Positions 14,622 to 40,725 of a stretch of DNA of 64,000 bases are shown piece by piece. The position numbers were made by a program, and so were the translations under genes. A model generated the notes under the pieces. The model searched no databases. It was not told the origin of the DNA and saw only the letters and a list, made by a program, of their open reading frames with translations. The stretch's first letter is position 1. Every line of letters begins with the position of its first letter. Source of the stretch: Euzebya tangerina (lineage in GTDB: Bacteria; Actinomycetota; Nitriliruptoria; Euzebyales; Euzebyaceae); contig NZ_PPDK01000001.1 of NCBI RefSeq assembly GCF_003074135.1, positions 1,612,001 to 1,676,000 of the forward strand. Direction: 5' to 3'.

Positions 14622-15308
14622 ATGAGTGACGTCGAGGTCGAGCACGTGAGCGACGAACTGCCGGATCGGACACCCCGGGAGCGCGAGATCCTGGATGCCG
14701 CCGCCACGGTGTTCCACCAGAAGGGGTACGGCGCCGCCACCATCCAGGACATCGCGGACGCCGTCGGGATCCTGAAGGGGAGCCTGTACTACTACATCAA
14801 CTCCAAGGAGGACCTGCTGTTCGAGGTGCTCCGTGACGCCCATCACGTCTCCCGCGTGCACCTGGAAGAGGCCAAGGCCGTCGAGGGCGACGCGCTGATC
14901 AAGCTTCGCGCGTTCATGGAACTGCACATCAAGTCCAACATCACCAACCGGGTGATGATCGGCGTCTACTTCCACGACTTCCGATCGCTGACGCCGGAAC
15001 GGCGAGCCATGTTCATGGGCGGCCCGGACGATCACGAGACCTACGTCCTCGAGCTCATCGAACTGGGCAAGGAGCAGGGCCTGATCCGCCCCGACGTCGA
15101 CGTCCGCATGACCGGCCTGGCGCTGATGGGGATGATGAACTGGGTCTACCAGTGGTACTCACCCGACGAGGTTGGCGGCGTGACCCCCAAGCAGTTGGCG
15201 ACCGCCTTCGCCGACCTGGCGTTGCGTGGCCTCGACGATCGCTCGGAGCACGAGTGGCCGTCGGCCAGCATGACCAACGCCCTCGGTGAGCTGGTGCAGC
15301 AGCGGTGA
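14622..15308 (+). CDS. TetR-family regulator, paralog 1
   Basis: A 228-residue TetR-type repressor. The N-terminal helix-turn-helix is clear: ILDAAATVFHQKGYG..., then TIQDIADAVGILKGSLYYY, then INSKEDLLFEV. The C-terminal ligand domain includes VYFHDFRSL and MGMMNWVYQWYSP. Both the HTH and these ligand-domain segments are nearly identical to the next gene, so they are recent paralogs. Family members of this type regulate acyl-CoA or steroid catabolism and often respond to a CoA thioester; that ligand is an inference. The palindrome at 14441-14458 lies upstream. I infer it represses the 13-site regulon. Confidence 0.9.
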   Translation: MSDVEVEHVSDELPDRTPREREILDAAATVFHQKGYGAATIQDIADAVGILKGSLYYYINSKEDLLFEVLRDAHHVSRVHLEEAKAVEGDALIKLRAFMELHIKSNITNRVMIGVYFHDFRSLTPERRAMFMGGPDDHETYVLELIELGKEQGLIRPDVDVRMTGLALMGMMNWVYQWYSPDEVGGVTPKQLATAFADLALRGLDDRSEHEWPSASMTNALGELVQQR

Positions 15309-18669: not shown

Positions 18670-20724
18670 GTGCGAGAGGGCAGGGCGCACACGGGTGGCG
18701 CTGACGCGACGCGCTCGTACTGCCGGCTCTGTCCGGCTCTCTGCGGGATCCTGGTGACGACCGACGGCGACCGCGTCGTCGATGTCGGTGGTGATCCGGA
18801 TCATCCCCTGTCCGAGGGCTACACCTGCCCGAAGGGTCGGTCGCTGCCGCAGCTGCACCACCGCGCCGATCGGCTCGAGCAGCCGGCCATCGGTCGGCCC
18901 GCCGCGCGCGTCGACGTCCACTGGGACGACCTGCTGGATGACCTCGCCGACCGGCTGGCCGGCGTGGAGGACACATCGGGCCCGGACGCCGTCGGCATGT
19001 ACGTGGGGACCGGCTCGGCGTTCGACGGCGCCGGCCGGGCCACCAGTCGACGATTCATGCGGGCGTTGGGGTCACGCAGCTACTACAGCTCCGGGACCGT
19101 CGACTCACCCTGCAAACCCCTGGTCAGCGAGCTGATGGCCGGCAGCGCGGCGATCATGCCGCATCCCACCCCCTCGACCCGGCTGACCCTCCTGGTGGGA
19201 CTGAACCCGGTCGTGTCGCACGGCCATCTCCACGCCTTCCCGAACCCCCGCAAGGGCTTGCGGACGCTCCGAGAGCAGGGCGAGTTGTGGATCGTCGATC
19301 CACGCCGGACGGCATCCACGGCACTGGCCACGCATCACCTGGCACCACGACCGGGCACCGACCACGTCTGGCTGGCCGCGGTCGTCCGCGAGGTCTTGGG
19401 CTCGCTGGACCACGCCGAGCTCCGGAACCGGATGACCGGGCTGGACCAGCTGGTTCAAGCGGTTGAGCCCATCGACCTGGCGACCGCCGCCCGGATCTGC
19501 GGAGTCCCCACGGCGGACCTGCTGCGACTGGTCGACGCCATCCTCGCCGCCGGGCGGATTGCCGTCGATTCGGGGACCGGTCTGACGATGACCGCGGGTG
19601 CCAACGTGGCCCAGTGGCTGCTGTGGACCCTCGCCGTCATCACTGACTCCTTCGACCATCCCGACGGCATGTGGTTCAACCCCGGTCTGCTGCACAGCTT
19701 CGACCGCATCACCCTCATCCCGACCGACGGGGCACCCGGTCCCGGGCCGAGGAGTCGGCCCGAGCTGCCCGCCCGTGTGGGCGAGCTCCCCGCAGCCGCC
19801 ATCGCCGAGGAGATCGAGAGCGGCCACCTGCGAGCCCTGCTCGTCTACGGCGGCAACCTCGTGACCGCCCTCCCGAACGCGCCTCGCCTTCGCGCTGCTC
19901 TCGCCCAGCTGGAGGTGCTGGCGGTCGCCGACGTCCAGCCGAGCGTCATGACCGACCTGGCGACCCACGTCCTCCCCGTGACCGGGCAGCTGGAGCGGCC
20001 GGACCTGCCGTGGTTCGACACGCTGATGCCGCAGATCAGCGCGCAGTACACGCCTGCCGTGGTCCAGCCCGTCGGGCAGCGGCGCCACACCTGGCAGGTG
20101 CTCGCGGAGCTCGGCGAGCGGCTGGACCTCGATGTGATCGGTGGCCTCCCGGTGGCGTCGGCGACCAGCGATGACGTCCTGCGGCTGATGGCCAAGCGGT
20201 CGCGCGTCCCCTTCGAGGAGCTGCAGTCGACCGCCGGTCCGGTCATCGATCCGGAGGTGCCGTACGGCTGGGTCCGGGCGGTGCTCCCAGCTGGTGGCTG
20301 GCGTGTGGCCCCCGAGCCGCTGGTCGAGCAGTTCGCGGAGCTGACCGGGCGGCTGCTCCGCCGCGAGGAGGGGGACGGGCTGATGCTCGCGCCGTCCCGG
20401 CGGCTGCGGCACCTCAACTCGCTGCTGGCGGGCGAGGCGACGGCCGACGGCCGGACGGAGAAGCCAGAGGTGCTCATGCACCCCGATGATCTGGTCGGTG
20501 TCGGTGTCGCCGCGGGAGAGGCCGTCGAGGTGACGTCGGAGCACGGTGTCGTGGTCGGGGTGGCCGGCGTCTCGGATGCGCTGCAGCCCGGCACCGTCAC
20601 CATGCCGCACGGGTTCGCCGATGTGAACGTCAACGACCTGACCGACGACGCCGAGGTCGATCCCCTCACGGGTATGCCGGTGTACTCAGGCCTGCAGATC
20701 CACGTGACCGCGACGGGGATGTGA
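18670..20724 (+). CDS. Molybdopterin (bis-PGD) oxidoreductase with [4Fe-4S] domain
   Basis: A 684-residue DMSO-reductase-superfamily enzyme. The N-terminal [4Fe-4S] ligands are C18-x2-C21-x3-C25-x27-C53. The Mo-bisPGD domains follow, with GLNPVVSHGH, IVDPRRT and a C-terminal molydopterin dinucleotide-binding segment (MHPDDLVGVGV...). No twin-arginine signal is visible, so it is probably cytoplasmic. It resembles formate-dehydrogenase-like or 'assimilatory' oxidoreductases, but the substrate is unclear. GTG 18670 has AAGGAGG 8 nt upstream. It leads an operon with an LLM oxidoreductase (3 nt gap) and an SDR-NTF2 fusion, under operator site 4. Confidence 0.86.
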   Translation: MREGRAHTGGADATRSYCRLCPALCGILVTTDGDRVVDVGGDPDHPLSEGYTCPKGRSLPQLHHRADRLEQPAIGRPAARVDVHWDDLLDDLADRLAGVEDTSGPDAVGMYVGTGSAFDGAGRATSRRFMRALGSRSYYSSGTVDSPCKPLVSELMAGSAAIMPHPTPSTRLTLLVGLNPVVSHGHLHAFPNPRKGLRTLREQGELWIVDPRRTASTALATHHLAPRPGTDHVWLAAVVREVLGSLDHAELRNRMTGLDQLVQAVEPIDLATAARICGVPTADLLRLVDAILAAGRIAVDSGTGLTMTAGANVAQWLLWTLAVITDSFDHPDGMWFNPGLLHSFDRITLIPTDGAPGPGPRSRPELPARVGELPAAAIAEEIESGHLRALLVYGGNLVTALPNAPRLRAALAQLEVLAVADVQPSVMTDLATHVLPVTGQLERPDLPWFDTLMPQISAQYTPAVVQPVGQRRHTWQVLAELGERLDLDVIGGLPVASATSDDVLRLMAKRSRVPFEELQSTAGPVIDPEVPYGWVRAVLPAGGWRVAPEPLVEQFAELTGRLLRREEGDGLMLAPSRRLRHLNSLLAGEATADGRTEKPEVLMHPDDLVGVGVAAGEAVEVTSEHGVVVGVAGVSDALQPGTVTMPHGFADVNVNDLTDDAEVDPLTGMPVYSGLQIHVTATGM

Positions 20725-23580: not shown

Positions 23581-26500
23581 TTGTTTGTTCCACCACGTCC
23601 TGGCGTCCTGTCCATCCTGCTTGTCGCAGCGCTGGCGTTGTCGCTGCTGCCAGCCACACCCGCGAGTGCCCAGGACCCACCGGCGCTGCCCGACCAGCCC
23701 AGCCCCCCGGACGTCCGTGACGGGAGCGAGGGCCGGGCGGCCGGTCGTCCAGCTGAGGTGCCGGCCGTCCGGTGGGCCGACGTGGTGCAGCAACCAGCGG
23801 TGCCTCGCGAGGAGCGCCCGTCGGTGGACCTCTCTCCACGCTCCGCAACGGTGCCCGTCACAGCGGCCGGCGCGGCGATTCCCGGCATGCCCGTGTGGCT
23901 CTCGGGGGCAGAGGGCGGAGAGGCAACCGTCGAGCTGCAGCCGGCCCCCTCATGGGCGGCTGTTGACGCCACCTTCGTGGTCCGAGCTGATGTCGAGACG
24001 GCTCGGCTGACCTTCGACCTCGACCGACTCGGTGTCGCGCGCTCGGCCGACCTCGCGGGTCGGCTGACCCTGTGGTCCTGTCCGGACCCGGCCTGTCGTG
24101 AGGGCGAGCGTGTCGACCTGAACCTCGACTCCGGGAGAGCGACGGCTGAGCTCGAGCCGGACCTCTTGGAGGACCGTCAATTGGTCTTCGGTGCCACCGC
24201 CTCGAGTGAGACCGGGTCCTTCGCTGCAACCCCACTGTCGTTGGTCGATCACTACCAGGTCGGGCTCTCCTCGGGTGCGGCCGAGACCTCCTATGAATTC
24301 GAGATCCCTCCCGCCGGCGCTGGCCCCGCGCCGGAGATCGGCCTGACCTACTCCTCGACGGCCGTCGACTCGATGGCGGCGGCTCGCAACAACCAGCCCG
24401 GCGTCGTCGGTGCGGGTTGGCAGTTCGAGCCGGGCTACATCACGAGGCACACCTCACCGTGCGGCTTCGACTTCCTGCCGGACGACGCGGGCGATCGGTG
24501 CATCTACACCGAGCAGTACTCGATCACGCTCGGTGGCACCTCATCGCGGCTGTTCCCTGTGGCCGGATCTGGCAGCGAGTTCCGTCTGGAAGACGATCCG
24601 AACTGGCGGGTCCATCGGCGCATCAGGGACGGGGTCCCCGCGGATGCGCCTGACAGCGGCGGCGTCTACTGGGAGCTCATCCAACCCGATGGAACGATCT
24701 ACAGCTTCGGGGGTCGGGCGTTCGACACGGATGCCAACTCCATCTTCTACCAGTGGGTGCTGGGGCCGGAGCAGACCCGCGCCGACTACTGCCCCGACGA
24801 CGCCGACTTGGACCTGTGCCGTTCAGCGTGGCGGTGGCAGGTGGACCGGGTCAGGGACACCAACGGCAACCACGTCGACTACCAGTACGAGTTGGAGTTC
24901 AACCACTACCAGGCCCGCGGCGGCAGCGACACACGCCGCCAGTACGTCCGAGCCGGGCGGTTGACGGAGGTCCGGTACAACTTCGACGACGGGGACACCC
25001 ATCACTCCCGCGTGCAGTTCTCCTACGACCGTCGGTGCATCCCCGATCCGGGAACTCCTGGAATCTGCGATGAGGAGCCGCGGGACGACGCCAACCAGGA
25101 CGCCTACCCCGACACGCCTCTGGACCTGCTGTGCGGGGCGACCTCCACGCCGGAGGATGCCCCACCCGACTCGATCGGTCCGGCCTCCTGTGATCCGGAT
25201 GACAAGGCCCAGACCTTCTTCACCACCTACCGGCTGCGCGGCGTCACCTCCTCCATCCGCGAGTCGGCGGCGGTCGAGTGGGTGCCAGCGACCGAGTACC
25301 AGCTGACCTACGCGTTCAGCGCGCAGAACACCGTCGACGGGGTCGCGAACCCGAACTCGCTGCCGGTTCGGGATGGCGAGCAGAAGCTCGTGCTCCGCAC
25401 GATCCAGCGGGTCGGCCAGCCTACGGAGCCGACGTCGGATCTCGAGCGGATCGCCGGCGACAACCGGGTGGCGACCGCCGTCGCGGTGTCACAGGCCGGC
25501 TGGGACGATGGCTCGGCCGATGTGGCCCTGATCGCCACCGGGGACAACTTCCCCGACGCCGTGGCGGCCGGGGCGTTGGCAGCAGCTCAGGACGCGCCGA
25601 TCTTGCTGGTCCAGGGACCGAACCTGCCGGACATCGTGGCTGACGAGATCGACCGGCTCGGGGTCGAGGAGGTGCTCATCCTCGGCGGGGTCGGAGCCGT
25701 CTCCAACCGCATCGCCGGAGCGCTGGATCAGCTCGGCGTCTCCAACCGCCGAGTCGCCGGGCCTGACCGCTTCGCCACCGCGGCCGCCATCGCTCTGGAG
25801 GCGGGGGCGCCGGGTGGTCGCGTGGCCGTCGCGTTCGGCGATAACTTCCCCGACGCGCTCGCCGCCGGATCGCTGGCTGCCACGGACGATCAGATCCCCG
25901 TCCTGCTGACCGGAACCGACGACCTACCCGAGGCCACCGCCGACGCCCTCAGCCAGTTCGGCGACGTGGACGAGGTGCTCGTCCTCGGGGGTACCGCGGT
26001 CATCAGCGATGCGACCGCCCAGGCGATCAGCGAAGCGGCGGACGCACCGGCCCGTCGAATCGCGGGCAACGGACGTCAGCAGACGGCCACGGCCATCGCC
26101 GAAGAGGCCTTGGCGACTGACGGCGGCCAGAAGCGGATCCTTGCCGCCACCGAAGCCGACTTCCCTGATGCGCTGTCCGCTGGCGGTCTGGCCGGGCAAC
26201 GCGACGGCATCGTGTTGCTCACCCCGACGCAGGGGTGTGGTCCCACCTTCGAGTGGGTGTCCTCCAACACCTCCTCGGTGGGCGGGGCCGCAGTGGTTGG
26301 CGGGACCGCAGTGGTGTCGGAGCAGACTGCTGCCGCGCTCGCCCAGGCGGTTGACGGGCTTGCATGCACCCCGGCAACGGCCGGGGCGGCCCTGGCGCCG
26401 GTGACCTACGACTACACGCTGCTGCGGAATCGGATCTCCGACGGGGGCGCATCCGTCCTGCCGCTCCCGCGCCTGACCCGGATCACCACGGAGCTCGGCG

Positions 26501-29500
26501 GGCAGGTCGAGTTCACCTACGGCCTGCCACGGCCATGCCAGGACACCGCGGGCCAGAACGCCGTCCACCTGCCCCGCCACTGCTTCTCCGCATTCGTGTC
26601 GCAGGAGGAGGGCGAGGGACCCGGCTCGTTTGCGCTGCACAACCGGTACGTCGTGACCGAACAACGCCAACTGGACCGCGAGGAAGACGAGACACCGGAG
26701 GTGACCACGTTCACCTACGGCGAACCGATGCACGCCTACAGCCTGGATCCCGCACAGCAGGACTACAACGGCTACTCCCAGGCCGCGCAGCTCGACTTCG
26801 GCTGTCCGTGCCGCCAGTGGAACGACTGGCGCGGTCATGCGTGGACCGAGGTCACCACCGCTCACTCCGTGACCCGTCATGTGTTCCACCGGGGCCTCCA
26901 GGGCGATGTGGTCGTGGGTGATCGTCAGTCGGAGACCGCCACCGAGTACCTCCTGCCGTGGCGAGACGCACCAGCGGTGACCTTGACCGATGGCTCAACC
27001 GTGGAGGATCCGCGTTGGTTGCGAGGGCGGACGGCTGAGGTGGCCATTCGCGAGCCGGGAGCCGCCGGTCCGTGGCGCCAGCGGGAGGTGACGTCCTACG
27101 TCGTTCAGGAGACCGACGCCTCGAGTCCGGTGTCGAAGGCCATCCCCCAGCGCAGCCGGTTCGTCGCCCCCTCGTCGGTGACGACCACGACGATCCAGTC
27201 GCCGGGGGGCGAGGAGGTGTCGCGCTCGGTCACGACGAGCTCGACGTACGACGAGTGGGGCAACCTGACGTCGAGCGCGGTCGATGACGGTGATGACGTC
27301 CGCCTGACCAGGACGTGGTTCGCACCCGCGTCGGACCGGATCACCGACCGTCCGGTCGCGGTGCAGATCACCGACGGCGAAGGAGACGTGGCTCGTCGGA
27401 CGACGATGGGCCACGACGGCTCCGAGCCGCCCGAGTTCACCGGTGCGGCTCCGGCTCCCACCCAAGCCGTCAGCGTGGGCAACGCCACGGCCATGCGGGA
27501 GTACCACACCCTCGAGGGCTTCTACGAGACGTCAACCGCCTACGACGACCGGGGTCGTCCCGAGACGGTGACCGATGCCAACGGCCACAGCGTGACGACC
27601 CGACACGATCCGATCTTCGGAACACCGCAGTCGGTCACCAACGAGTTCGGCCACCTCACCCGGTACACCTACGACCACCGGTTCGGGCTCGTGACCAGGG
27701 CGACCGACGCCAACGGCAACGCCACATCGACGACCCTGGACGACCTGGGACGCGCAGTGGCCGTCCGGCTGCCGACCGAACAGGCCGCCGCACCGACGTA
27801 CCGGTTCGGCTACGACCCCACGGCCCGTCCGGCGTCGGTGACCACCCAGCGGCTGACGGCCGATGGCAGCTACCTGGTTGACACGGCCTACCACGACGGG
27901 TTCGGCCGGGTCATCCAGACCCGCTCGCCATCCTCGACGGAGGGGCAGGCCACCGTCGCAGCAACCAGCTACGACGGTGCCGGCGCGGTCTTCCGCGAGT
28001 CCGCTGCCTACGACATCCCCGGCTCGGTCACCACATATGAGCCGCCGGCGTGGTCAGAGGTCCCGGCCTACACCGAGACGACGTACGACCACTTCGGTGA
28101 GCCGGGTGTCGTCCGTCGGATGGCCGCTGGCGAGCAACTGTGGCAGCGCACGATCGACCGCTCGGGCTGGACGGTCACCACACGTGGGCCGGAGGGGCAG
28201 GTCCGGCTCGAGACCGCCAACGGGCACGGTGAGATCGTCAGCGTGACCGAGCAGGGCGGCCAGGCCGGGGACGCCACGGCTGCCTATGCCTACGATGCGT
28301 CCGGGACACTTCGGCAGATGACCGACGCCGGCGGGGCGGTCACGACGGTCACGACGAATCTGCTGGGCTGGAAGACGGGTCTGGACGATCCGTCCTCCGG
28401 CTCGTGGTCCTACTCCTACGACTCGGTTGGTCAGGTCATCCGTGAGGTCGACCCGAACGACCACGTGGTCACCTTCGAGTACGACGCCCTCAACCGGCTG
28501 GTGGAGCGCAGAGCCGATAGCGAGCTCGTTGCCAGCTGGCAGTACGTCGAGACGGTCGGCGATCGCGGTCGCCTGCAGGGCACCACGGCTCTGACCCCCC
28601 AGGGTCAGATCGAGGTCAGCTACGGCTACGACCCACGGAACCGGATCGTCGACCAGCGCTGGACGATCCCGACGGTTGGCACCCACGAGATGTCGTGGAC
28701 ATTCGACGCGACCGACCAGGTCACGAGTGTCACGTATCCGGAAGTCGATGGTGCGGCCGAGACGGTCGAGTACGGCTACGACCGAGCCGGCCGGGTCGAG
28801 ACGGTCATGGGCGACCGGCTCTATCTGGCCGCCGCGTCCTATGACGCCCAGGGTCGGGTTGCGTCACAGGAGCTGTTCGGCGGCATCGCCCGACGTGCCG
28901 AGCACGATCCGGGGACCTTGCACCTCACCGGCATGTCTGCGGTTCGAGACGACGAGCCGTTGCAAGACCTGGCGTACGCGCTGGACAGCTCTGAGCGGGT
29001 GACCCGGATCACGGATGCGGTCAACGGCGGACAGTCGCAGTGCTTCGCCTACTCCGCTCGGGACGAGCTCGTCGGAGCGTTCACGACCGGACCGGACTGC
29101 ACCGCCGGGCACGACCCGGCCGTGGGGGCAGACCCGTATGACCACATCTACGCCACCGAGCCGAACGGGAATCTCACCGACCGAGGCGATCGCCTGTTGT
29201 CCTACGAGGATCCCGTGCGGCCCCATGCGGTGACGTCCACCTCGGATGGCATCGAATTGTCCTACGACGCCGCCGGGAACATGACCCGACGGGTCGACGG
29301 GGATGGCGAGATCAGGTTCACCTTCGATGCCGACAACCGATTGGCAGAGGCCGACGGACCGGGCGGTGTCACGTCCTACCTGTACGACGCCGACGGCCAT
29401 CGGATGGCGGCCACCGGTGTGGACGGTACGACGGCGTGGCTGGACCAGTACGTGGAGCTCAGGTCCGGGGGCGACGGCGAGTTGGAGATGGTCTCTCGCT

Positions 29501-30651
29501 ACCTGTCTGGCGATCAGCTGTTGGCGGAGTCCAACTCGGCGACCGGTGAGACGACGACGATGTTGCCGGATCATCTCGGGTCGACCGTGGTGGCGGTGCC
29601 CGAGGGTCGGGCGCCGCAGTTCGTCCGGTACGACCCGTGGGGCGCACGGCGGGAGTCGTCCGCCGAGGAGGACGTGGTTTCGCGTGGCTTCACCTCGGCG
29701 CCGACAGATCCGGACACCGGGCTGGTCTGGTTGTCGATCCGCAACTACGACCCGGCGCTCGGCCGGTTCGTGCAGCCGGACACCATCGTCGGCGACCCGG
29801 GCTCGCCAGGCGGGATCAATCGGTACGCCTACATGTCGAACAACCCCCAGGGTGGGGTTGACCCATCCGGTCACTTCGGGGCACTCGGTGCGCTTGTGGG
29901 TGGGGTCGTCGGTGCCGTGGCCAACTACGGCAGCCAGGTCGCGACCAACGTCGCGGAGAACGGCTTCTCCACGGAGGCCTTCACCGACATCGACCTCGGC
30001 GCCGTCGGCCGTGCGACCGCAGTCGGGATGGTGGCCGGTGCGACGGGAGGTGTCGGGGCAACCGCGTTCGGCGGGGGCACTCTTGGTCTGCTGGCCGGCG
30101 GCGGGGTGTCTGGCGCGGTATCGGGTCAGGCGTCGAGGGCGGCGGAGAACGCGCTGAGCGGGCGCCCGATCACCGAGGGGCTGCTGGCGCCCGGCGATCT
30201 GTTGATGGACGCCGGGATCGGGGTGGTCTCCGTCGGAGCGGCAGCTGGGTTCACTCGTGGTCGGAGTATCACCCGGCCGGCAAGTATCGAGGACCTACCG
30301 ACCGGTGCACCAACGACCCCCCAGAGCAGCATGTACCGAACGGTCTCGGATAGTGAACTGGCAGACATTCAGTCGTTTGGAGGCTTCCGTCCCAATCCAG
30401 TAGGCAACTCCTACGACGACCTAAAGCTCTTTGCTGAGAACGCTGACGACGCCGTATGGTGGGGGCAGCACTTCGCCCGCTGGGAGGGTGAACCATACTG
30501 GGTCCTACAGGTAGACGTTCCGGAAGACCTGATGAGCCAATTCGGAAGAAGAATTCTGGACAGCCGACCAGTTATCACCGTCCCCGCCACTTCCCAGCAA
30601 GCGTTAAACAGGGCATCCCGCATTCACATTCATAGCCAGATTCCAATATGA
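23581..30651 (+). CDS. Secreted RHS/YD-repeat polymorphic toxin with embedded CWB2 repeats
   Basis: A 2356-residue protein starting at TTG 23581, with a signal peptide (hydrophobic LLVAALALSLLPATPASA, cleavage near residue 30). Residues ~230-620 are an SpvB/RHS-type N-terminal shell (PEIGLTYSSTAVDS..., GAGWQFEPGYI). Residues ~621-930 hold three cell-wall-binding repeat 2 units (RIAGDNRVATA, RVAGPDRFATA, RIAGNGRQQTA). YD repeats run from ~1310 to 2050 and end at the core boundary GRFVQPDTIVGD...GVDPSGHFG (about 2061-2102). After a Gly/Ala-rich segment, residues 2251-2356 are a variable toxin tip. The tip is lower in GC and may be ADP-ribosyltransferase-like. The stop overlaps the next ATG. It is probably a cell-wall-anchored contact toxin. 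Confidence 0.85.
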   Translation: MFVPPRPGVLSILLVAALALSLLPATPASAQDPPALPDQPSPPDVRDGSEGRAAGRPAEVPAVRWADVVQQPAVPREERPSVDLSPRSATVPVTAAGAAIPGMPVWLSGAEGGEATVELQPAPSWAAVDATFVVRADVETARLTFDLDRLGVARSADLAGRLTLWSCPDPACREGERVDLNLDSGRATAELEPDLLEDRQLVFGATASSETGSFAATPLSLVDHYQVGLSSGAAETSYEFEIPPAGAGPAPEIGLTYSSTAVDSMAAARNNQPGVVGAGWQFEPGYITRHTSPCGFDFLPDDAGDRCIYTEQYSITLGGTSSRLFPVAGSGSEFRLEDDPNWRVHRRIRDGVPADAPDSGGVYWELIQPDGTIYSFGGRAFDTDANSIFYQWVLGPEQTRADYCPDDADLDLCRSAWRWQVDRVRDTNGNHVDYQYELEFNHYQARGGSDTRRQYVRAGRLTEVRYNFDDGDTHHSRVQFSYDRRCIPDPGTPGICDEEPRDDANQDAYPDTPLDLLCGATSTPEDAPPDSIGPASCDPDDKAQTFFTTYRLRGVTSSIRESAAVEWVPATEYQLTYAFSAQNTVDGVANPNSLPVRDGEQKLVLRTIQRVGQPTEPTSDLERIAGDNRVATAVAVSQAGWDDGSADVALIATGDNFPDAVAAGALAAAQDAPILLVQGPNLPDIVADEIDRLGVEEVLILGGVGAVSNRIAGALDQLGVSNRRVAGPDRFATAAAIALEAGAPGGRVAVAFGDNFPDALAAGSLAATDDQIPVLLTGTDDLPEATADALSQFGDVDEVLVLGGTAVISDATAQAISEAADAPARRIAGNGRQQTATAIAEEALATDGGQKRILAATEADFPDALSAGGLAGQRDGIVLLTPTQGCGPTFEWVSSNTSSVGGAAVVGGTAVVSEQTAAALAQAVDGLACTPATAGAALAPVTYDYTLLRNRISDGGASVLPLPRLTRITTELGGQVEFTYGLPRPCQDTAGQNAVHLPRHCFSAFVSQEEGEGPGSFALHNRYVVTEQRQLDREEDETPEVTTFTYGEPMHAYSLDPAQQDYNGYSQAAQLDFGCPCRQWNDWRGHAWTEVTTAHSVTRHVFHRGLQGDVVVGDRQSETATEYLLPWRDAPAVTLTDGSTVEDPRWLRGRTAEVAIREPGAAGPWRQREVTSYVVQETDASSPVSKAIPQRSRFVAPSSVTTTTIQSPGGEEVSRSVTTSSTYDEWGNLTSSAVDDGDDVRLTRTWFAPASDRITDRPVAVQITDGEGDVARRTTMGHDGSEPPEFTGAAPAPTQAVSVGNATAMREYHTLEGFYETSTAYDDRGRPETVTDANGHSVTTRHDPIFGTPQSVTNEFGHLTRYTYDHRFGLVTRATDANGNATSTTLDDLGRAVAVRLPTEQAAAPTYRFGYDPTARPASVTTQRLTADGSYLVDTAYHDGFGRVIQTRSPSSTEGQATVAATSYDGAGAVFRESAAYDIPGSVTTYEPPAWSEVPAYTETTYDHFGEPGVVRRMAAGEQLWQRTIDRSGWTVTTRGPEGQVRLETANGHGEIVSVTEQGGQAGDATAAYAYDASGTLRQMTDAGGAVTTVTTNLLGWKTGLDDPSSGSWSYSYDSVGQVIREVDPNDHVVTFEYDALNRLVERRADSELVASWQYVETVGDRGRLQGTTALTPQGQIEVSYGYDPRNRIVDQRWTIPTVGTHEMSWTFDATDQVTSVTYPEVDGAAETVEYGYDRAGRVETVMGDRLYLAAASYDAQGRVASQELFGGIARRAEHDPGTLHLTGMSAVRDDEPLQDLAYALDSSERVTRITDAVNGGQSQCFAYSARDELVGAFTTGPDCTAGHDPAVGADPYDHIYATEPNGNLTDRGDRLLSYEDPVRPHAVTSTSDGIELSYDAAGNMTRRVDGDGEIRFTFDADNRLAEADGPGGVTSYLYDADGHRMAATGVDGTTAWLDQYVELRSGGDGELEMVSRYLSGDQLLAESNSATGETTTMLPDHLGSTVVAVPEGRAPQFVRYDPWGARRESSAEEDVVSRGFTSAPTDPDTGLVWLSIRNYDPALGRFVQPDTIVGDPGSPGGINRYAYMSNNPQGGVDPSGHFGALGALVGGVVGAVANYGSQVATNVAENGFSTEAFTDIDLGAVGRATAVGMVAGATGGVGATAFGGGTLGLLAGGGVSGAVSGQASRAAENALSGRPITEGLLAPGDLLMDAGIGVVSVGAAAGFTRGRSITRPASIEDLPTGAPTTPQSSMYRTVSDSELADIQSFGGFRPNPVGNSYDDLKLFAENADDAVWWGQHFARWEGEPYWVLQVDVPEDLMSQFGRRILDSRPVITVPATSQQALNRASRIHIHSQIPI

Positions 30652-33104: not shown

Positions 33105-33124
33105 TCGACCAAACGTCCGGTAGA
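33105..33124. promoter_or_regulatory. Operator site 5 between IpdAB-like and hydratase genes
   Basis: TCGACCAAACGTCCGGTAGA has ACC-N8-GGT spacing. The final GGTA runs into TAGATT (33121-33126), a TANNNT-like -10 element 7 nt before GTG 33134. The operator thus overlaps the likely promoter and would block a leaderless transcript. Confidence 0.75.
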
Positions 33125-36510: not shown

Positions 36511-36530
36511 TCGACCAAACGGTAGTTTGA
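36511..36530. promoter_or_regulatory. Operator site 7 at the P450 promoter
   Basis: TCGACCAAACGGTAGTTTGA: ACC-N8-GTT spacing with CAAAC/GTTTG arms. It ends 4 nt before ATG 36535, and its TAGTTT (36523-36528) fits a -10 six nt from the start. The gene is probably leaderless and blocked when the site is occupied. Confidence 0.7.
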
Positions 36531-37767: not shown

Positions 37768-37799
37768 GTTGCGAGCCGTCACGTCGAGGCGTAGTCAAA

Positions 37800-37817
37800 C
37801 AACCGACCGTTTGGTAA
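37800..37817. promoter_or_regulatory. Operator site 8 upstream of the UGSC operon
   Basis: CAACCGACCGTTTGGTAA; reverse strand ACCAAACGGTCGGTTG with ACC-N8-GGT. The end flows into TAACCT (37815-37820), which is 7 nt before ATG 37828 and fits a leaderless -10. Confidence 0.75.
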
Positions 37818-37827
37818 CCTGAGCGAC

Positions 37828-38952
37828 ATGGCAGACCTGCTCGAACTCGACGAGTCGGCGGCCCAGGAGCACTTCTTCGAAGCCGGCTGGACCGACGGGC
37901 TGCCGGTGGTCCCACCCACGCCGGACCGCGTGCTGGACACGCTCCTGGCCGGCGGTGTGACCGATCCGGACGAGATCCTGGGGTCAGTGCCGCAGCGCAA
38001 CGTGACCGTCACGGCTGAGCAACTGGCGATCAACGCGGTGATGGCAGGTTGCAAGCCGGCGTACTTCCCGGTGGTGCTGGCGGCAACAGACTGTCTGCTG
38101 TCGCCGGACTTCAACGCCCACACCGCGTGCACCAGCACCGGCGGGGCTGCGCTGTGCGTGGTGGTCAGTGGCCCACTGGCGGCCGAACTCGGCATGAACG
38201 GCGGGCTGAACGCGCTGGGCCCCGGCAATCGGGCGAACGCCACGATCGGCCGAGCCGTCCGGCTGCTGGCCGCCAACGTCCTGGGGGCCAAGAGTGGTGA
38301 GTTGGACGGCTCGTCCATGGGCCACCCGGGCAAGTACACGTTGTGCGTCGCTGAGGAGCCGACGCCTGGCTGGGAGCTCCACGCCGTCGCCATTGGGTAC
38401 GGCCCCGAGGACACGACGGTGACGTTGATGCCGACCGAGGGGCCCCATCAGGTCGCCAACCACCTGAACGGTGATCCCGAGGGCATCCTGCTGACCTTCG
38501 CGGCGGCGATGTCCAACCCGGCGACGTTCTCCACGGGCAAGGCTGGGCAGGGGATCGTCGTGCTCGGCTGGGAGCACCGGACCATCCTGGCCAAGGCCGG
38601 CTGGGACCGCTCTCGTGTCCAGGCCTTCCTTGCGGAGCACACCCGTGTCACCCCCGACGAGCTGGCGGCCGGTGGGGTGTTGCTGGAGGAGGGAACCAGC
38701 CACCCGATGATCCCGGGACCGGACGGCAAGTTGCCGTCGTTCCGCTCGCCGGAGGACATCCTCGTGACCACGGCCGGCGGGGCTGGGGCCGGTTGGTCGG
38801 CCTACATCCCCTCATGGGCGCCGCCGGGCCACGCCCATGCCGAGGCGGTCACGCGCCGCGTGCGACTCGCCGGGGAGGCCCTGCCGGACTGCGGTCCGGA
38901 TGGGTGCGAGGTGGATCTGGACGTCCCAGTTGCACCCGAGGAAGGCCCCTAG
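37828..38952 (+). CDS. Uncharacterised protein, partner of the UGSC selenoprotein
   Basis: A 374-residue soluble protein I cannot assign to a functional family. It begins with an acidic helix and a G-W-x-D-G-L-P-V-V-P-P-T-P-D-R motif. Cysteines that could be redox-active occur in TACTSTGGAALC (about residue 104-115) and in DCGPDGC near the C-terminus. The gene directly precedes the UGSC-type gene, 2 nt apart, with shared promoter and operator, so a joint function is probable. It could present a substrate or reduce the selenocysteine of its neighbour; neither is shown by the sequence. Confidence 0.6.
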   Translation: MADLLELDESAAQEHFFEAGWTDGLPVVPPTPDRVLDTLLAGGVTDPDEILGSVPQRNVTVTAEQLAINAVMAGCKPAYFPVVLAATDCLLSPDFNAHTACTSTGGAALCVVVSGPLAAELGMNGGLNALGPGNRANATIGRAVRLLAANVLGAKSGELDGSSMGHPGKYTLCVAEEPTPGWELHAVAIGYGPEDTTVTLMPTEGPHQVANHLNGDPEGILLTFAAAMSNPATFSTGKAGQGIVVLGWEHRTILAKAGWDRSRVQAFLAEHTRVTPDELAAGGVLLEEGTSHPMIPGPDGKLPSFRSPEDILVTTAGGAGAGWSAYIPSWAPPGHAHAEAVTRRVRLAGEALPDCGPDGCEVDLDVPVAPEEGP

Positions 38953-38954
38953 CC

Positions 38955-39503
38955 ATGGGAACCATCCGAGTTCATCGCCCGGTCCCGCCGCGCGCCGAGG
39001 TCGAGTCCGGCGGTGAACTGGCCGAGCGTCGTGACCTGCCGGACGACGCCGTCCTGACCATCATCGACAACGGCAAGCCGCGTGGTCGTGATCTGATCGA
39101 GCGGATCGCTGACGGGCTGCGCAGGCGGCTCTCGATCGGTCAGGTCGAGGTCCACACCAAGCCGTCCGCGGGGGCACCGATCGATGCCGACGTCGCTCGG
39201 ATGCTGGCAGCCAGGTCGCACCTGGTGATCAGCGGCCTCGGCGACTGAGGGGCGTGCACCGCGTGCAGTTTGCACGACGCCGTCCAGATGGAACGCCTCG
39301 GCGTGCCCGCCACCCTGGTGATGACCGAGCCGTTCACGAGATTGGCGGCCAACTTCTCCGCCACCCTTGGCATGCCGGGCTACCCGGCCGTGGTTGTCCC
39401 ACACCCGGTCGCGAGCCTGGATGACGGCGCGCTGGATGCCCTGGCGGACTCGGTTCTGACCACGGCCGAACAGCGGTTTACGGCGGTCTCCGTCCGAGCC
39501 TGA
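38955..39503 (+). CDS. UGSC-family selenoprotein (in-frame UGA read as selenocysteine)
   Basis: Reading through TGA at 39246-39248 gives one 182-residue protein ending at TGA 39501-39503. The recoded residue 98 sits in GD-U-G-A-C-T-A-C-S-L-H-D, matching the U-G-S-C motif that names the family, with Ala for Ser and cysteines at 101 and 104. The downstream half (VQMERLGVPATLVMTEPF..., VVVPHPVASLDDG) is typical protein and has no start codon or ribosome binding site of its own. A hairpin lies 4 nt after the UGA. ATG 38955 follows GAGGAAGG. Sec incorporation needs selA-D elsewhere in the genome. The redox reaction is unknown. Confidence 0.82.
39253..39276 (+). promoter_or_regulatory. Candidate bacterial SECIS hairpin
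   Basis: CGTGCA (39253-39258) pairs with TGCACG (39271-39276) around a 12-nt loop (39259-39270). The stem starts 4 nt after the UGA at 39246-39248 and is inside the coding region, where bacterial SECIS elements occur. The loop has no obvious match to the E. coli apical sequence, which varies between taxa. Confidence 0.5.
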
Positions 39504-39525: not shown

Positions 39526-39545
39526 TCGACCAAACGACCGTTTGA
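39526..39545. promoter_or_regulatory. Operator site 9 upstream of the acyl-CoA dehydrogenase
   Basis: TCGACCAAACGACCGTTTGA: CAAACG and CGTTTG form a perfect inverted repeat around AC. It ends 13 nt before ATG 39559. It resembles site 7 in having the wider CAAAC-N4-GTTTG arrangement. Confidence 0.72.
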
Positions 39546-39558
39546 ATCGGGTTGCGCG

Positions 39559-40725
39559 ATGATCGAGTTCAGCCTCACCGAGGAGCAGGAGGCGCTGCGG
39601 GCCACGGCCGCCAAGCTGGCTGACGAGGTCTACGCACCACGGATCCTCGAGTGGGATCGTGAGGGGACGTTCCTGCCCGCTGAGGAGCGCCGGCGGCTGG
39701 GGCAGATGGGGCTGCTCGGCATCGCCCTGCCGGAGGCCTACGGCGGGGGCGGGGCCGACTTGCTGGATGCCCTGCTCGTCGTCGAAGAGGTGGCCAAGCG
39801 AAACCAGATCGCTGCCTTCCAGATCTTCGAGGCCAACACCGGCCCAGCCAGGGTGATCGACCTGTTCGGCACCGAGTCGCAGAAGGCCAGGTTGTTGCCA
39901 CCACTGATTGCCGGCGAGGAGACGCTGGCCGTCTCCATCTCCGAACCCGACGCGGGCTCTGCTGCCACGGACATGACGACATCGGCCGTGCTCGACGATG
40001 ACTCTTACGTGCTGAACGGGATGAAGCGGTGGTGCTCCGGGGGTGGGCACGCCGAGCAGTACCTGGTGTACGTCCGGCTGGGGGACCAGCTCGGCTCGAA
40101 GGGGATCGGCGGGATCGTCGTGGACCGGGAGACGCCGGGCTTGACGTTCGGACCGCAGGAGCGGCTGATGGGCTTCCACGGGATCCCCTCCGCCGACATG
40201 TTCTTCGACGACGTTCGGGTGCCGGCCGGGAACCTGATCGTCGGTGAGGGTGGCTTCCGTGACCTGTTCACCGCCTTCTCCATCGAACGGCTGGGGAACT
40301 CGACGATGGCGCTGGCGATCGGGCAGGCCTGCCTCGACCTGACCGCGGCGTACGTGCAGGAGCGAGAGCAGTTCGGCCGTCCGATCATCGAGTTCCAGAC
40401 CGTCCAGGCGGCCCTGGCGGACATGATCATGCAGGTGGAGGCGGCCCGGCTGCTCATCTGGAAGGCCGCGGCGGAGGCGGGGCGGGGGGCGCCGGACCCG
40501 CTGGCCGCCTCCATCGCGAAGTGCACCGCCAACGAGATGGCCAAGCGGGTCAGCGACCTGGCGATGCAGCTCCACGGCGGCTACGGCTACCACCCCGAGT
40601 ACCACGTGGAGCGGATGCACCGGGATGCCCACGGCTGGGCGATGGGTGGCGGCACGCCGACGATCCAGCGGATCCGCATCGTGTCGCAGTACCTCGGCCG
40701 GTCCTTCGACCAGCGGGGCGCGTGA
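39559..40725 (+). CDS. Acyl-CoA dehydrogenase
   Basis: A 388-residue ACAD of normal length. N-terminal helical domain, the beta-domain segment SISEPDAGSAATDM, and the C-terminal QLHGGYGYHPEYHVERMHRDA are clear. At the usual MCAD-type base (E in YEGT) this protein has GGGT, so the base must be elsewhere. E243 in SIERLGNS is in the helix where isovaleryl-CoA-dehydrogenase-type enzymes place theirs. It would introduce a 2,3-double bond in an acyl-CoA. ATG 39559 follows operator site 9, and the following NTF2-like gene overlaps its stop. The substrate is probably branched or ring-attached; this is inference. Confidence 0.9.
   Translation: MIEFSLTEEQEALRATAAKLADEVYAPRILEWDREGTFLPAEERRRLGQMGLLGIALPEAYGGGGADLLDALLVVEEVAKRNQIAAFQIFEANTGPARVIDLFGTESQKARLLPPLIAGEETLAVSISEPDAGSAATDMTTSAVLDDDSYVLNGMKRWCSGGGHAEQYLVYVRLGDQLGSKGIGGIVVDRETPGLTFGPQERLMGFHGIPSADMFFDDVRVPAGNLIVGEGGFRDLFTAFSIERLGNSTMALAIGQACLDLTAAYVQEREQFGRPIIEFQTVQAALADMIMQVEAARLLIWKAAAEAGRGAPDPLAASIAKCTANEMAKRVSDLAMQLHGGYGYHPEYHVERMHRDAHGWAMGGGTPTIQRIRIVSQYLGRSFDQRGA

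Follow-up and report, generated by a model that had tools for sequence, protein, structure and literature searches.

A UGSC-family selenoprotein gene of Euzebya tangerina and its near-obligate partner: candidate subunits of a thioredoxin-fed selenoenzyme

The window, a stretch of 64,000 nt from Euzebya tangerina, carries a predicted UGSC-family (PF24696) selenoprotein gene of 182 aa at 38955..39503 on the + strand. Its frame ends at a normal TGA stop (39501-39503) and contains a single internal TGA, at 39246..39248 on the same strand, which is codon 98 and coincides with a TGA column in the homologues. Read as selenocysteine (U98), this codon opens the motif U98-G-A-C101-T-A-C104 given in the preliminary description, and translation of the frame confirms it; in the alignment Cys101 (39255-39257) and Cys104 (39264-39266) make up the cysteine part (39255..39266, + strand) of a UxxCxxC motif. 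The frame was also said to run on through the TGA to a typical C-terminus, and indeed the read-through protein matches PF24696 at 150.6 bits (E 5.9e-44; gathering score 25), in an alignment of residues 7-176 that spans the TGA, and the family assignment is borne out. At the conserved column the family's Sec (or Cys) and the GxC after it appear as U98-G-A-C101. Likeness to the family lies in the profile match, the UxxC motif, the presence of Sec in most members and an uncharacterised function, the difference being that the window motif is UGAC, not UGSC. Written with Cys for Sec, the protein scores 121.4 bits with the NCBIfam model NF041046, whose cut-off is 125. Standard ORF calling, which does no recoding, yields a 97-aa protein and a separate 77-aa ORF from 39270, just the truncation at 97 residues or pair of fragments that had been anticipated. 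The locus illustrates an annotation pitfall: ordinary calling truncates the protein, and this family member scores 3.6 bits too low for NCBI's own model.

The UGSC-containing selenoproteins were described in 2008 by Zhang and Gladyshev (PMC2398784), so the selenoprotein itself is not new. That survey groups UGSC with the thiol oxidoreductases, proposes a thioredoxin-like fold, and mentions a fusion to another domain, 'Unknown_1'. New here are the partner, the thioredoxin link, the relationship to GrdB and the predicted flavodoxin/CheY-like fold; the survey does not appear to describe the partner family, its pairing with UGSC, the thioredoxin-like fusion or the GrdB link, though the partner may have an earlier description elsewhere.

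The genome of the window (G000; 4.78 Mb, 98% complete) was searched for selA, selB, selC and selD, as had been suggested; rather than lacking Sec machinery, it has all four. SelA is encoded at C1:1331415-1332716 (426 bits), SelB at C1:1327640-1329580 (323 bits over the frame), SelD at C1:2347573 (380 bits) and tRNA-Sec at C1:1437790 (65.9 bits against a gathering score of 47; ARAGORN anticodon UCA). UGSC scored above cut-off in 18 of 150 genomes; 16 of the 18 have a selA match, that of G023 being only partial, and in the remaining two tRNA-Sec scores above cut-off. This co-occurrence (Fisher p 0.04) carries little weight, since selA occurs in 105 of the 150 relatives anyway. At one locus (L115, 6587-9888) the gene order is a thioredoxin-like/partner fusion, UGSC, selA and selB; the Pfam tally of UGSC neighbours contains a second selA-selB pair in one more locus, and in L124 and L130 ORFs of matching size for selA and selB lie directly downstream of UGSC. 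In L115, and probably in L124 and L130, selA and selB stand directly behind UGSC as if it were a main reason for keeping the Sec machinery.

Homologues were collected from whole genomes and by scanning 84,980 species genomes with the partner protein, a query that does not select for Sec. TGA occupies the aligned column in 98 of 101 UGSC homologues, Cys in two, and one sequence is cut off before the site; the check for Cys or Sec at this column, also suggested beforehand, therefore came out in favour of recoding. The two Cys forms, each adjoined by a partner gene, are from a Binatia MAG (L110, 129-1843) and from the haloarchaeon Natrialba asiatica (L129, 4324-6014). Frequent replacement of Sec by Cys in UGSC was considered and rejected (Cys in 2 of 100). 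In this genome and its relatives 30 family matches score above cut-off, among them the window gene and its paralogue, and each has exactly one TGA. Invariant across 26 aligned homologues are K69, residue 98, G99, C101 and D108, while residue 104 may be C, W, G, S, A or H. Comparison with five relatives gave pN/pS of 0.53-0.73 before the TGA and 0.41-0.60 after it, by which measure the codons on either side are under similar purifying selection.

A SECIS-type hairpin with the stem CGUGCA/UGCACG and the apical triloop GUU lies at 39262..39276 on the + strand, 16-30 nt from the U of the UGA, with its apical loop 19 nt behind the UGA; it is conserved and covaries in 98 sequences. A gap-free alignment of these, covering 42 nt from the UGA, gave the consensus GUCGUGCA-GUN-UGCACGAC; the window forms the core stem (39262-39267/39271-39276) without the outer two pairs of the consensus. 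Changes on both sides of the stem were counted in 38 cells against 7.1 in shuffles, further pair types were 14 against 10.1, and the covariation score was 0.220 against 0.094; none of 500 shuffles, which ignore relatedness, reached these values. Sliding the 3′ strand by 1-3 columns lowers pairing from 88% to 13-55%. Inner positions switch jointly, the codon TGC going with ..GCAC, GGC with ..GCTC and TGG with ..CCAC, so that residue 104 (C, G, S or W) covaries with codons 106-107 as base pairing dictates; the RNA signal constrains the protein sequence around the active site. Folded as a single sequence the window hairpin is not significant (z -1.3, with no value stronger than -1.4), so comparative evidence alone counts for it. 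The element resembles the bacterial SECIS elements read by SelB in being an in-frame hairpin just behind the UGA with a short stem and with G-U first in the apical loop, and differs from them in its strongly conserved 6-8 bp stem, its GUN triloop, and the way amino-acid choices at residue 104 vary together with pairing.

The split that standard ORF calling makes in the frame is what would be expected if the TGA were a true stop or a sequencing error and the locus a pseudogene or a gene for a 97-aa protein. Against this, 98 homologues in many phyla share the TGA column, the hairpin covaries, the Sec machinery of the genome is complete, and the codons after the TGA are under selection; the comparative evidence already refutes this reading, to which we give next to no credence. 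To judge from the agreement of machinery, TGA column and covarying hairpin, the UGA at 39246 is almost certainly decoded as Sec, as the preliminary description held.

Immediately upstream, at 37828..38952 on the + strand, is a gene for a 374-aa protein whose stop codon comes 2 nt before the UGSC start. It had been listed as an unassigned partner gene, and it does lack a Pfam or NCBIfam match; searches with 28 and with 67 members of its family, even at E 10 or 0.01, found no consistent Pfam or NCBIfam family. Of the 92 partner genes flanked on each side by 1.2 kb or more, 85 have UGSC fused to them or within 1 kb. Eight of these 85 pairs are fused, and in 72 of the 77 unfused ones UGSC follows the partner on the same strand, at a median distance of 22 nt. 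UGSC and partner form one open frame in L061, L075, L076, L091, L112, L119, L140 and L150 and in the divergent L085. None of the UGSC genes with 1.5 kb on both sides lacks a partner. The relatives found through UGSC give the fairest pairing figures, because part of the 92-gene set came from the partner search; among them the partner adjoins every copy but that of L070, where the contig extends only about 0.7 kb upstream. No other shared neighbour dominates among the 87 neighbouring genes. By these counts the partner is a near-obligate companion of UGSC, and the pairing together with the natural fusions makes it very probable that the two proteins form a two-subunit complex.

Seven partner genes have no UGSC nearby. 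Partner genes of this kind occur at L147 (3828-6026), L131, L136, L139, L114 and L149; a Bacillota MAG has two in tandem and Poribacteria have three, and what may be a UGSC start lies about 5 kb off in L149, at the end of the locus.

Partner proteins are 340-380 aa long and conserve D23, G24, R142, G165 and E176. Profile comparison found no relation to GrdB or GrdE (probability 0.2% for the GrdE-like profile), and no pyruvoyl-type maturation site was identified. The structure model of the window partner has pLDDT 91 and weak PDB matches: by Foldseek these were class I fumarase (7xky, E 4.3e-4 at TM 0.25) and cyclic amide hydrolases. Fumarase, cyclic amide hydrolase and chorismate mutase (best Z 5.3) were set aside as partner homologues, the matches being too weak.

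In 26 of 111 cases the partner frame extends upstream into an N-terminal C-x-T/A-C domain; four have CPTS. This domain is thioredoxin-like by weak Pfam matches, which were below cut-off in the cases tested (best Thioredoxin_2, E 2e-4). The window's own partner is free of it, and the fused form is found with the genome's second copy. That second UGSC gene (L052, G000:C3:171637-172140) has a partner with a CETC thioredoxin-like domain joined to its N-terminus. Cys104 is present in all 25 UGSC proteins of loci with the fused domain, compared with 39 of the 74 others (Fisher p 4e-6, with no correction for relatedness). A redox cycle with thioredoxin is likely.

The second half of UGSC resembles the C-terminal Sec domain of GrdB-like selenoproteins of the same phylum. 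With UGSC alignment A1 (26 homologues) hhalign gave a score of 43.0 (P 1.8e-5), and with larger sets (89 UGSC and 14 GrdB) 41.9 (P 7e-5), against at most 27.5 (mean 14.7) for 100 column-shuffled controls and 18.3 for a reversed profile. The similarity spans only about 78 residues, in which Sec is placed on Sec and the UxxCxxC motif, the next helix and the GIP/GVP strand also align. By curated models UGSC is not a GrdB: PF07355 and TIGR01917 have no match in its own genome, and a search with 26 UGSC proteins, allowing E up to 10, did not bring up PF07355. What UGSC has in common with GrdB/PrdB of the glycine and D-proline reductases (PF07355, TIGR01917) is the UxxCxxC motif with in-register profile similarity, the strand-Sec-helix context U-G-x-x-T-x-C...E-R-x-G-I/V-P, and the pairing of a Sec subunit with another subunit gene. 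The literature (PMC13188914; PMC6778437) documents both the UxxCxxC of GrdB and a glycine reductase chemistry driven by thioredoxin, and thioredoxin, the electron donor of that system (PMC13188914), offers a further parallel. In contrast to GrdB/PrdB, UGSC is a single domain of about 180 aa that PF07355 does not match, its partner is unrelated to GrdE by profile, and it sits in a catabolic context among P450 and acyl-CoA enzymes, not in amino-acid fermentation. By its comparison with the GrdE-like profile, the adjacent partner is no GrdE/PrdA-type proprotein. Full-length GrdB-like selenoproteins with one TGA also occur outside the clostridia, in the window's own phylum (L180-L194), and many genomes of the phylum have a shorter GrdB-like family with one TGA and mostly a UPxC motif (L195-L209).

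Sequence comparison matched UGSC to no solved structure. In an AlphaFold2 model of a naturally fused relative (L061:16499-18124, pLDDT 87) the UGSC domain has alternating strands and helices, flavodoxin-, CheY- and PurE-like PDB neighbours (Z up to 11.8), and the Sec at a strand-helix junction; there is no thioredoxin among the PDB matches listed for it. The fold is predicted to be flavodoxin/CheY-like, unlike the thioredoxin-like fold proposed in the survey (PMC2398784). How the two domains face each other could not be read from the fused model.

A palindromic operator-like site lies upstream of the partner gene at 37798..37815, in keeping with the operator near 37800 of the preliminary description. 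It is one of eight places in the window with ACCAAACGRCCGTTTG-like palindromes (15 strand matches, 0.46 expected); the ACCAAACGACCGTTTG-like sites are at 33108, 34809, 36514, 37798, 39529, 41732, 48557 and 59760. They precede a CoA-transferase pair; glyoxalase-like and SnoaL-like genes; a cytochrome P450 (36535..37767, + strand, PF00067, with its operator at 36514); the partner-UGSC pair; an acyl-CoA dehydrogenase (39559..40725, + strand, PF00441/02771/02770); a second glyoxalase-like gene and a Liv-type binding protein; a molybdenum hydroxylase; and another P450. The palindrome before the acyl-CoA dehydrogenase (39529..39546, a perfect + strand match) would bound the partner-UGSC transcription unit. 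The eight sites mark out about 26 kb (33108-59777) as a regulon. Alongside the two P450s and the molybdenum hydroxylase it contains an SDR, a CoA-transferase pair, an acyl-CoA dehydrogenase and a Liv-type ABC transporter, and it is a catabolic regulon, as had been claimed. The narrower assignment to 'hydrophobic-acid catabolism' is plausible from the regulon yet is not supported as stated; it was a guess. TetR-type regulators are encoded at 14622 and 15367, the second judged from its sequence.

UGSC-module neighbours differ between phyla. P450 relatives 64-65% identical are found near the UGSC module in the same-genus loci L062 and L063, and an acyl-CoA dehydrogenase copy 80% identical is near the three modules of L061 (G050:C21:7500-18200), which lie within about 11 kb, one of them fused. 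Elsewhere in the window are an open frame of 2356 aa that appears to encode a signal peptide (23581-30651), with a stretch 37-39% similar near UGSC modules in L067 and L068, and a gene for a molybdopterin oxidoreductase of 684 aa (18670-20724), a relative of formate dehydrogenase alpha, which has no in-frame TGA.

The sequences display the Sec codon, the hairpin, the gene pairing, the fusions and the GrdB similarity. We infer from them an enzyme that the bacterium probably uses to break down some organic compound, and we somewhat favour a two-subunit, thioredoxin-fed selenoenzyme. SelB and tRNA-Sec would decode the UGA at 39246 under the direction of the hairpin at 39262-39276, on the comparative evidence, and the UGSC protein would join the 374-aa protein encoded upstream in one enzyme. 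Sec98 would sit at the start of the helix after the central strand of a flavodoxin/CheY-like domain, with C101 and C104 as resolving cysteines. The partner would bind the catabolic substrate, Sec98 would attack it there as a nucleophile, C101/C104 would resolve the selenium intermediate, and thioredoxin, which in many relatives appears to be fused to the partner as a CxxC domain, would re-reduce the selenenylsulfide. Overall, thiols may drive a reduction, or the reductive cleavage of a carbon-heteroatom bond, in an intermediate of the catabolic regulon; GrdB-like reductive chemistry on a catabolic substrate is possible, at somewhat less than even chances. Telling against the model are the short span of the GrdB similarity, the missing match to the curated GrdB models, the partner's lack of kinship with GrdE, the thioredoxin-like domain that the window's own partner lacks, the neighbours that change from phylum to phylum, and the seven partner genes with no UGSC close by.

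The same UxxC motif and thioredoxin-like fusions would suit a thiol-dependent antioxidant enzyme (a peroxidase, disulfide reductase or repair enzyme) that shields an oxygenase-rich pathway and does not act on its substrate, and the varied neighbours and the earlier grouping of UGSC with thiol oxidoreductases (PMC2398784) point the same way. We consider this unlikely, though a serious contender: the predicted fold is flavodoxin/CheY-like, a dedicated partner of 340-380 aa with many conserved residues suggests a specific substrate site, several paralogues may occur per genome (as in the three modules of L061), and the pair is co-regulated with one catabolic cluster. The pair might instead act on the pathway substrate with no net redox change, for example by isomerisation, hydration or hydrolysis, with Sec again the nucleophile. 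The catabolic setting would fit, as would the partner's Foldseek matches to class I fumarase and cyclic amide hydrolases, were those matches convincing (best E 4.3e-4, TM 0.25; best Z 5.3); the thioredoxin-like fusions and UxxCxxC point to redox, and we hold this reading improbable.

With the partner, the thioredoxin-like fusions, the GrdB link and the co-regulated genes, an 'unknown selenoprotein' becomes a testable two-subunit enzyme. Taken further, and quite tentatively, UGSC and its partner may represent a large uncharacterised selenoenzyme class of two subunits, sometimes a single thioredoxin-fused chain, which would share common descent with the Sec domain of GrdB/PrdB, extend over many phyla and, in Cys form, to haloarchaea, and carry out reductive carbon-heteroatom cleavage in the organic-acid catabolism of oxygen-using bacteria. 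If true, this would place in oxygen-using bacteria a type of cleavage so far tied to anaerobic amino-acid fermentation.
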